Source: [Limnothrix rosea] IAM M-220 (GTDB lineage Bacteria; Cyanobacteriota; Cyanobacteriia; Cyanobacteriales; MRBY01). From it: a stretch of 64,000 nucleotides of DNA. Where the stretch lies: the NCBI RefSeq assembly GCF_001904615.1, contig NZ_MRBY01000018.1, forward strand, positions 1 to 64,000. The letters are read 5' to 3'. Below, piece by piece: positions 57,190 through 59,641 of the stretch; position 1 is the first letter of the stretch, and every line of letters starts with the position of its first letter. The notes beneath the pieces were generated by a model that had not been told where the DNA came from, made no database searches, and was given only the letters and a program-made list of their open reading frames with translations. The position numbers were made by a program, and so were the translations under genes.

Positions 57190-58452
57190 TCACATTTCTG
57201 ATAGATAACTACACCAATCACTCCAGCCACCGACATAGAGCCTGAGATTATTGTGTCCCGTAATCTCTAGTGAGAGCCAATTGACACAGGCCGTGACACC
57301 TGACCCACAATACAAAACCAACTCCTGATCTTTCGGGTACACCTGCCAAAGTTTTTGTTGCTCTTTGAAAGGTAAAGCAAATCCCTCTGCATCGGAAACC
57401 GCTTTCCATGGTGAATTCATTGCACCGGGTATATGACCAGCAACGGGGTCTAACGGCTCCGTTTGTCCTAGATAGCGCGCCTCGTCCCGACAGTCCAAAA
57501 CGATGCGTTGGTTGTCCGTTGCAACTAAAAGTTCATCCCGACTAATTAATAAATCACGTCGGATTTGCGGTCGAAAAGCGGTTTGGGTTGCTGTTTGAGG
57601 TAACTCTTGATTACATTCATAGTCTGACTTTTCCCAAGCGGCAAAACCACCATCGAGAATGCTGACATTGTCATGGCCATAGAATTTTAGTAGCCACCAA
57701 AACCTCGCCGCAAAGGCAAACCGTAGATCGTCATAAACGACAACTTCTGTTGTGCCCTGTTCGATGCCAAGGCGCGTTAATGTTGCGACAAATTTTTCTG
57801 GGTCGGGTAATGGATGGCGGCCGCCATGTTTGTCTAGGGGCGACGAAAGATCCTGATCGAGGTGGAGGTAATGGGCTCCCGGAATATGTTTTTTTTGGTA
57901 TTGGGCCTTGCCCCAGTCTGGATCATTTAGTCGGAACCGACAATCGACAATGACCACGTTTGGGTCGTGGAGGCGATCGCCGAGGGCTTGGACGGAAATG
58001 AAGTAGGGAGAAAGACGATTAGACAAGGTTTTTGAGATCAGCAAATAATTTTTTTGGCGCTGTTCGTCGTGTTTATAGTCGAGCTTCGAGGCAATTTTTT
58101 TGAGGATAATAAACCCCCGGCCGCCCGATGCAAATTCGTTCACCTTTTTCAGATCGAGGTGTTGGAGATGTTTCTCTAGATCGAAGTCATGATTACCACT
58201 ATCCCAAATGCGAATATCTAGGCAATCTTCCTGTAGGGTAAGGTCAATATCAATGGGGCAATGCTTCAGTGCTTCACCGTGGGCATGGCGCACTGCATTC
58301 GTAAACCCTTCGGCGATCGCCATTTGACACTGCATCCAATCATGGCGAGGAATACGGTCATGACGATTGATCTTATTACACTGCTCCAATACTTGATCCA
58401 ACTGGGTCAAATCACTCGCAACGTGGAATTGATATTGGTCTAAGATAGCCAA
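57190..58452 (-). CDS. anti-sigma-factor-type kinase fused to a rhodanese sulfurtransferase
   Basis: Residues 1-141 are an RsbW-like HATPase domain: N box E48-GFT-N52 with AVRHAHGE, G1 box D-S-G (84-86) and G2 GGRGFIIL (110-117). After a linker of about 6 residues, residues 148-420 form a two-domain sulfurtransferase of the mercaptopyruvate/thiosulfate type: first domain 'VIVDCRFRLNDPDWG' with an inactive loop, second with the active Cys382 in CGSGVTAC. No stop separates the two. A TTG at codon 143 (58024-58026) could be an internal start. The start is 52 bases from that of the divergent response-regulator phosphatase gene. Confidence 0.85.
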   Translation of the reverse strand: MAILDQYQFHVASDLTQLDQVLEQCNKINRHDRIPRHDWMQCQMAIAEGFTNAVRHAHGEALKHCPIDIDLTLQEDCLDIRIWDSGNHDFDLEKHLQHLDLKKVNEFASGGRGFIILKKIASKLDYKHDEQRQKNYLLISKTLSNRLSPYFISVQALGDRLHDPNVVIVDCRFRLNDPDWGKAQYQKKHIPGAHYLHLDQDLSSPLDKHGGRHPLPDPEKFVATLTRLGIEQGTTEVVVYDDLRFAFAARFWWLLKFYGHDNVSILDGGFAAWEKSDYECNQELPQTATQTAFRPQIRRDLLISRDELLVATDNQRIVLDCRDEARYLGQTEPLDPVAGHIPGAMNSPWKAVSDAEGFALPFKEQQKLWQVYPKDQELVLYCGSGVTACVNWLSLEITGHNNLRLYVGGWSDWCSYLSEM

Positions 58453-58504
58453 AGGTGAGCTTACTGAGTTGCAGAAGGGTCATTGCTGGTAGTGTAGCTT
58501 AATT

Positions 58505-59641
58505 ATGATTCAGATTCTCGTTATTGATGATGACCCAGCCATCCGCACCCTCCTCAAACGGACTTTAACGCGCCAAGGCTACGATATTCATGACAGTAAT
58601 AATGGTGCCGCGGGTCTAGACAAGGCGATCGCCCTCCAGCCAGAGTTAGTGATTTGCGACTGGATGATGCCGGGGATGAATGGCCTCGATGTCTGCAGAG
58701 AAATCAAAAACCACCCCGCCCTAAAACACAGCACTTTTTTTATCCTGCTCACGGCCCTCGGTAGTACCGAAGATAAGATTATGGGCTTAGATGCGGGAGC
58801 CGATGATTTTTTATGCAAACCCATTGAAATTGCCGAATTGCTAGCACGGGTACGGGCGGTATTACGGATTCAACAGTTGACCGGCGATCTCTATCTGCAA
58901 AAACAAAAATTAGAGTCGGAAATTTCTGAAGCGGCGCAATATGTGCGAACCCTTTTACCGCCACCCTTAAATCGCTCTCGTATCAAAATTGAAACCTGTT
59001 TTGTGCCCTCTTCCCAGCTAGGGGGGGATGGCTTTGATTATTTCTGGCTCGATCATCAACGGCTAGCTTTTTATCTCCTTGATGTGTCTGGCCACGGATT
59101 AAGGGCTGCTTTACCCTCCATTGCTGTCCTGAATTTGATGCGATCGCGCAATGGTCACCAAGGCGTAGATTATGGCAAACCAAAAAATGTCCTAGAATAT
59201 CTCAGCGCCAACTGCAAATTTATTGAGCAGCAGGAGCAGTACTTTACGATGTGGTACGGCGTTTTTGATATTGATGAACGAGTATTGACCTATGCCAGCG
59301 CGGGACATCCACCCGCGATTATTTTTGGCGATCGCCCCGGGGAGCCACCACAACTACTCCGTACCAAAGGTTTTCCGGTCGGGTTATTCGAGCCGGAAGA
59401 ATCTATCTATCAAGAAGAGCAAAAATATATTTCCTTTAATTCACGCTTGTATCTTATTAGTGATGGAGTCTATGAAGATTCCCGCTCTAAAGATGCCGTC
59501 CAAAATTGGCAACAGTTTTTAGATTTACTCTCTGGGTATGAAGCAAAACATGACCTTGCCAGCCTCGAAAAGCTCCTGCGGGCTCGCCTCCATGGCCATG
59601 AACTAGAAGATGATTTCTCGATGATGAAATTATCACTTTAG
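58505..59641 (+). CDS. response regulator with PP2C (RsbU/SpoIIE) phosphatase output
   Basis: Receiver domain 1-125 with acidic triad DDD (8-10), phosphoacceptor D52 in CDWMMPGMNG and Lys in CKPIEIAELL. A short coiled coil (about 128-150) leads to the PP2C phosphatase domain (about 165-378) with the metal motif YLLDVSGHGLRAALPS and 'YASAGHPPAIIF', 'LISDGVYED', 'DDFSMM'. Such proteins dephosphorylate anti-sigma-factor antagonists. The divergent gene encodes the matching kinase type. The antagonist (STAS protein) and sigma factor are not in the window. Confidence 0.9.
   Translation: MIQILVIDDDPAIRTLLKRTLTRQGYDIHDSNNGAAGLDKAIALQPELVICDWMMPGMNGLDVCREIKNHPALKHSTFFILLTALGSTEDKIMGLDAGADDFLCKPIEIAELLARVRAVLRIQQLTGDLYLQKQKLESEISEAAQYVRTLLPPPLNRSRIKIETCFVPSSQLGGDGFDYFWLDHQRLAFYLLDVSGHGLRAALPSIAVLNLMRSRNGHQGVDYGKPKNVLEYLSANCKFIEQQEQYFTMWYGVFDIDERVLTYASAGHPPAIIFGDRPGEPPQLLRTKGFPVGLFEPEESIYQEEQKYISFNSRLYLISDGVYEDSRSKDAVQNWQQFLDLLSGYEAKHDLASLEKLLRARLHGHELEDDFSMMKLSL

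Follow-up and report, generated by a model that had tools for sequence, protein, structure and literature searches.

The only classical partner switch demonstrated so far in cyanobacteria or in chloroplasts and plastids is that of Slr1861, Ssr1600, and SigC in Synechocystis sp. PCC 6803 (PMC12329169), and the phosphatase that acts on Ssr1600 is, according to the authors of that work, unknown (PMC12329169). The module described here resembles the Slr1861/Ssr1600 pair (PMC12329169) in that it is cyanobacterial and combines an RsbW/SpoIIAB-type HATPase kinase with a small STAS protein bearing a D-S-S motif. Nevertheless, Slr1861 is a single-domain protein encoded in the icfG operon (PMC12329169), whereas the present module has a REC-PP2C phosphatase of its own and, in one genus, a kinase that is fused to a sulfurtransferase. 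The fusion was found in a window of 64,000 nucleotides, the whole stretch of DNA analyzed, from [Limnothrix rosea] IAM M-220. The coordinates of the relevant features are given in Table 1.

Table 1. Features of the fusion gene and its divergent neighbor (positions in the window).
Feature	Position	Strand	Details and evidence
Kinase-sulfurtransferase fusion ORF	57190-58452	(-)	420 codons uninterrupted; TTG at 58452, stop at 57190
RsbW/SpoIIAB-type HATPase (GHKL kinase) domain, residues 1-141	58030-58452	(-)	Pfam HATPase_c_2; TTG start
Linker, residues 142-149 (TLSNRLSP)	58006-58029	(-)	Gap-free in six-genome alignment; codon comparison
Two-domain sulfurtransferase, residues 150-420, Cys382	57193-58005	(-)	Pfam Rhodanese, phmmer, Foldseek
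First six codons (TTG GCT ATC TTA GAC CAA)	58435-58452	(-)	Nucleotide-identical in 6/6 fusion genomes
REC-PP2C (response-regulator receiver + SpoIIE-type serine phosphatase), 378 aa	58505-59641	(+)	Pfam
Divergent intergenic region, 52 bp, common to fusion and REC-PP2C genes	58453-58504	.	Layout kept in 6/6 genomes

Domains and Start of the Fusion Protein

Both halves of the fusion are recognized by Pfam: HATPase_c_2 covers residues 12-132 (67.2 bits against a cut-off of 27.4), and Rhodanese matches two segments from residue 154 onwards (123.3 bits against a cut-off of 22.2). The initial annotation had described a HATPase domain and a complete two-domain sulfurtransferase with Cys382 in a single frame, and this description is borne out, with a linker of about 8 residues between the two. 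The AlphaFold2 model of the protein (mean pLDDT 89, pTM 0.81) consists of two folded units with a linker at approximately residues 142-150.

The closest solved structure to the HATPase half is Bacillus RsbW (6m36, E=1e-4), and its score against the NCBIfam RsbW equivalog, 33.6 bits, falls below the cut-off of 145. The N box (E48-GFT-N52), the aspartate of the G1 box (Asp84), and the G2 box (GGRG, residues 110-113) are invariant across the alignment of the six fusion genomes. By contrast, the glycine of the G1 box is substituted (DHS) in four of the six, and consequently ATP binding could be altered in those proteins. Thus, the earlier view that the N, G1, and G2 boxes are all intact holds for the N and G2 boxes and for Asp84, but not, in four of the six, for the G1 glycine.

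The sulfurtransferase half carries the active loop CGSGVTAC (residues 382-389), with Cys382 lying within YCGSGVTAC. Its best match among solved sequences is E. coli SseA (1urh, phmmer E=5e-38), and a Foldseek search with the C-terminal unit places human MPST (4jgt) and SseA (1urh) first. Against the NCBIfam MST equivalog, PRK11493, it reaches 149.1 bits, below the cut-off of 250. An arginine common to SseA and human MPST (EPRPG / EPRDG) has no counterpart in the fusion (EPLDPVAG). Presumably, R188 and R197 of human MPST are the arginines that hold the carboxylate of the substrate; in the alignment with solved sequences, R188 is kept as R326 in the fusion, and the position of R197 is aligned to a leucine. 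Judging by its loop and its nearest structures, this half is of the 3-mercaptopyruvate-sulfurtransferase type and less like a classical rhodanese, the name given to it initially.

The whole protein starts at a TTG codon. According to a by-eye count, this codon is TTG in all but one of ~34 distinct relatives with a leucine there, and its persistence at the aligned first position in most of the distant HATPase relatives is what is expected of a true start codon. The first six codons are also the longest nucleotide-invariant run in the fusion gene, the next longest among the six genomes being of 2 codons, while synonymous sites outside this run are near saturation in the same genomes. Possibly, this invariant start (58435-58452 in the window) is an element for translation control or another form of regulation. 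The few bases that precede it are likewise invariant in the six diverged fusion genomes (L002-L006 and the window).

The Divergent Phosphatase

On the other side of the short intergenic region lies the divergent REC-PP2C gene that had been reported at 52 bases from the fusion. Its two expected domains were found, both over the Pfam cut-off (Response_reg, 96.1 bits; SpoIIE, 107.6 bits). Columns that are invariant in eight orthologues include the phospho-acceptor Asp52 and the metal-site residues Asp175, Asp193, Asp320, and Asp369/370. The nearest solved structure, 3eq2, is a two-component response regulator with the same REC-PP2C layout. As the score against the equivalog of Pseudomonas RssB (NF045505) is 148.3 bits, below a cut-off of 700, the protein is best described, from its sequence, as RssB-like in architecture and not as the same protein. 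Of 60 order-level relatives, 53 have it, rarely in more than one copy, and it stays divergent beside the fusion in all six genomes while other neighbors have been rearranged. Its absence is shared with the HATPase in G017, G021, G040, and G044.

Conservation of the Fusion and Selection on Its Domains

The fusion was sought in related genomes and is present, in frame and without a stop, in the six genomes of the genus (Picosynechococcus/Limnothrix), at 58-76% identity; the carriers include Picosynechococcus sp. PCC 7117 and Limnothrix sp. RL_2_0. Since six genomes have the same uninterrupted frame, a sequencing, frameshift, or assembly artefact is ruled out, and conservation at this level of identity likewise rules out a chance open frame. 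Nor is the fusion peculiar to one genome. It had been considered that homologues might always be separate and this one unique; the ATP-binding and sulfurtransferase genes are indeed separate elsewhere, but the fusion is genus-wide and, among 388 genomes of the class, confined to the genus, with no second fusion outside it. No other was seen among the 80 best named loci either. The long-frame candidates in G033, G253, G340, and G351 turned out to be either unfused genes or sulfurtransferases extended by unrelated sequence. Nothing relevant on a rhodanese-HATPase fusion was found in the literature searched. In the tree of the sulfurtransferases, the six fusions are grouped together (support 100/99), and a single origin of the fusion is all that is needed.

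Both domains of the fusion are under purifying selection. In pairs with unsaturated synonymous change, the phosphatase has a dN/dS of 0.03-0.08, the HATPase one of 0.04-0.14, and the sulfurtransferase one of 0.06-0.10. In addition, the median ratio of HATPase to sulfurtransferase distance, 1.46 in fused pairs, is close to the 1.31 of separate pairs, which indicates that the constraint on the kinase was not relaxed by the fusion. Relaxed selection on the fused HATPase is thus ruled out by dN/dS and by the distance ratio.

Origin of the Fusion

Outside the genus, 24 named loci have separate, adjacent genes for the HATPase and the sulfurtransferase, with small overlaps or short gaps between them. 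Such pairs occur in Crocosphaera, Microcystis, Prochloraceae, Xenococcaceae, Chroococcus, Hydrococcus, and others, and the HATPase gene of the pair, which is followed by the sulfurtransferase gene, usually diverges from the REC-PP2C gene. The most informative case is that of Gomphosphaeria aponina, where both genes are in one frame and only TAG and CCC lie between the end of the kinase and the ATG of the sulfurtransferase. When these codons are aligned to those of the fusion, the TAG corresponds to Arg146 and the ATG to Ser148, the length being unchanged. Because this layout is collinear with the linker of the fusion, the loss of a stop codon is the simplest origin. The likeliest history suggested by the alignment is, then, that the fusion arose when a stop codon was lost within an operon that already existed, and it would provide a clean example of stop loss whose precursor arrangement is still present in a relative.

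Unfused orthologues of the sulfurtransferase, at about 50% identity and with the same loop, occur in 264 of the 388 genomes of the class, and in 54 of the 84 rows of the tree the gene is not linked to any HATPase. The label "adjacent" changes about eight times in this tree, mostly at weak branches; a single recruitment of the sulfurtransferase behind the HATPase is no more than possible.

A small gene of about 178 aa (RLSIFVDGNNMFYAQQKNGWFFDP), which we take to be NYN-like, lies 3′ of the sulfurtransferase gene in 24 loci, and a gene resembling that of 2-isopropylmalate synthase is often also found 3′ of it (11 loci). An extended conserved downstream cluster is seen in L034, L035, L038, L059, L079, L103, L146, and other loci, and has been lost in the fusion genus. 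In Microcystis aeruginosa LEGE 91341 (L109, 1875-3929), the REC-PP2C and HATPase genes are divergent but are separated by two extra ORFs, of 190 and 362 aa, which are perhaps the insertion of a mobile element.

The Proposed Partner-Switching Module

The REC-PP2C had been proposed to be the opposite arm of a partner switch, and this finds support in its presence in most relatives and in the gene that often accompanies it. In about 30 of the 56 loci that were clustered, the gene order is STAS, REC-PP2C, HATPase, with the STAS gene convergent to that of the phosphatase. This family of STAS proteins lies beside the phosphatase in 33 of the 56, which come from many families, with or without a sulfurtransferase after the HATPase. 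HATPase-phosphatase pairs without the sulfurtransferase also occur. The STAS proteins have 105-130 aa and a DSSGLG or DSAGLG motif (D-S-[SA]-GLG); the motif is also present in the orthologues of the present genome (G000) and of G002. Consequently, by analogy with the biology of RsbW/RsbV/RsbU and of HsbR/HsbA (PMC6482189), the STAS, REC-PP2C, and HATPase proteins may be taken as the antagonist, phosphatase, and kinase of a partner switch. To judge from gene content, this module is spread through Cyanobacteriales and kept in most of the genomes tested. Literature searches turned up no account of it.

At the locus studied here, the kinase and the phosphatase are linked, and the STAS gene is no longer present; in the fusion genus it lies elsewhere, as a pair in G000, G004, and G005 and as a single gene in G001-G003. 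The pair of the present genome is in tandem (L135 1428-2096, contig C11), one member with DSSGLG and the other with DSAGLG. In G002, a genome of the Picosynechococcus type, only two SpoIIE-type phosphatases and two RsbW-type HATPases clearly pass the Pfam cut-off, and the small STAS frames number three. The fusion locus thus supplies one of the two phosphatases and one of the two HATPases, half of the set, and such a small inventory leaves few candidate partners for the module in this genome. A different situation is found in G012 (L172 1610-1960), in which REC-PP2C and HATPase have been lost and the module STAS has been kept, so that this STAS may serve another kinase. It adjoins an FAD-oxidoreductase-like gene, which is its flanking neighbor elsewhere too.

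What the Fusion May Do

These results are probably best explained by a partner-switch kinase that was fused by stop loss to a sulfurtransferase, with both domains active and with ordinary sulfur transfer at the C-terminus. The HATPase would most likely phosphorylate a small STAS antagonist and could sequester a partner, be it a sigma factor or another regulator, while the REC-PP2C, switched by a two-component input, would remove the phosphate from the STAS. In the ancestor, the sulfurtransferase gene would have been directly 3′ of the kinase gene and in the same frame until the stop of the latter was lost. The genus would now make a single bifunctional protein, with the partner switch operating via the N-terminal domain and ordinary sulfur transfer taking place in the C-terminal one, and the covalent link would fix a 1:1 ratio and co-expression. 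Kinase activity, the STAS as its substrate, sulfurtransferase activity, and the lack of obligatory cross-talk between the domains are what we infer here. Some observations fit this reading less well. The deep conservation of the HATPase-sulfurtransferase order, together with the genus-wide fixation of the fusion, could mean functional coupling. Furthermore, the STAS gene is gone from the locus in the fusion genus, four of the six fusions have DHS in place of the G1 glycine, and the STAS of G012 survives without phosphatase and kinase.

Signaling from one domain of the fusion to the other is possible, as a minority reading. For instance, the kinase could sense sulfur if persulfidation or oxidation of Cys382, or the binding of substrate, altered the HATPase and the sulfane-sulfur status thereby fed the partner switch. 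A covalent link that is genus-wide, through a linker that is short and does not vary in length, would suit such a sensor, as would the fact that no orthologous sulfurtransferase other than the fusion was found in G001-G003. Moreover, a member of the group, Synechococcus PCC 7002, oxidizes sulfide and answers polysulfide transcriptionally (PMC12466478). Nevertheless, sensing of this kind is rather unlikely, as the fused form showed no residues of its own that would point to an interdomain switch, the history of the operon by itself explains the adjacency of the genes, and the module and the sulfurtransferase are phylogenetically separable. In effect, the sulfurtransferase is kept without a match to the phosphatase or the HATPase in G017, G021, and G044, and the module is kept without the sulfurtransferase in G014, G042, and G056. 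Given that either persists without the other, the sulfurtransferase is not an obligatory part of the module, and the idea, hinted at in the initial annotation, of a module that acts on or reads sulfur transfer under a general stress or carbon signal is not supported. The more specific proposal that the kinase is informed of sulfane-sulfur or mercaptopyruvate status by the sulfurtransferase domain, via the state of Cys382, such that sulfur and a two-component signal (through REC-PP2C) are integrated on one STAS, must be considered unlikely as well.

The signal could also run in the opposite direction, such that a STAS or another partner, by binding to the HATPase domain, would turn the sulfurtransferase on or off. 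Outputs of partner switches other than sigma factors are known; for example, phosphorylated HsbA binds the diguanylate cyclase HsbD (PMC6482189). In G030 (L150 3678-5795) and G055 (L151 2501-4648), the sulfurtransferase gene is directly divergent from that of REC-PP2C with no HATPase between them, a layout that is either a hint of direct linkage or the result of a simple deletion of the HATPase gene. This second possibility, and the lack of linkage of the sulfurtransferase to any HATPase in most genomes (54/84 rows), make a regulated enzyme quite unlikely. The same divergence of sulfurtransferase and REC-PP2C, with the HATPase gene missing, is observed in L044.

It is less probable still that the fusion is of little consequence because the sulfurtransferase is also made alone, from an internal start, or because the protein is split by proteolysis. 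A TTG at codon 143 had been pointed out as a potential internal start, and G002 and G003 have an ATG at codon 144. However, this TTG is found only in the present genome and one relative (G005), the other four having CTT, CTA, or CTG. Near the junction the six genomes do not share a start codon, all six fusions have another codon where the sulfurtransferase ancestrally had its ATG, and no Shine-Dalgarno-like stretch was seen by inspection upstream of codon 143 in this sequence. Finally, a neutral accident, in which stop loss joined two operon genes and left the HATPase as a passive appendage without a kinase role, is highly improbable, for although the precursor arrangement exists in Gomphosphaeria and the G1 glycine is lost in four of six, the HATPase is under purifying selection (dN/dS 0.04-0.14), its N and G2 boxes are invariant in six genomes, and the divergent REC-PP2C was retained in all of them despite rearranged neighbors.

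As Picosynechococcus is genetically tractable, the fused form makes it possible to test in a single gene what the module does and whether it is linked with sulfur metabolism.

Comparison with Known Systems

The STAS of the module is not Ssr1600. The C-terminal peptide of the latter (PMC12329169) resembles a different STAS (L131, L138), and the module STAS has 24% identity to the Ssr1600-like STAS of these genomes, which was picked by this C-terminal match, and belongs to a different subfamily. The HsbR-HsbA system of P. aeruginosa and CrsR-CrsA of Shewanella also bring together a receiver, a PP2C phosphatase, a GHKL kinase/anti-sigma domain, and a STAS protein in one switch (PMC6482189). In HsbR and CrsR, however, receiver, PP2C, and kinase are on one polypeptide (PMC6482189), whereas in the system described here REC-PP2C is a protein of its own and the kinase has the sulfurtransferase joined to it. 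A kinase, a STAS antagonist, and a PP2C phosphatase are likewise the components of RsbW/RsbV/RsbU in Bacillus, but RsbU is without a receiver domain and no sulfurtransferase is involved.

The sulfurtransferase shares with E. coli SseA and human MPST two rhodanese domains and the CGSGVTA loop; unlike these, it is fused to a kinase and lies below the cut-off for the MST equivalog. Since the RsbW, MST, and RssB cut-offs are all missed, the three are regarded as relatives and not as members of those families. The separate sulfurtransferases of other cyanobacteria are orthologous, but are unfused and mostly encoded away from a HATPase gene.
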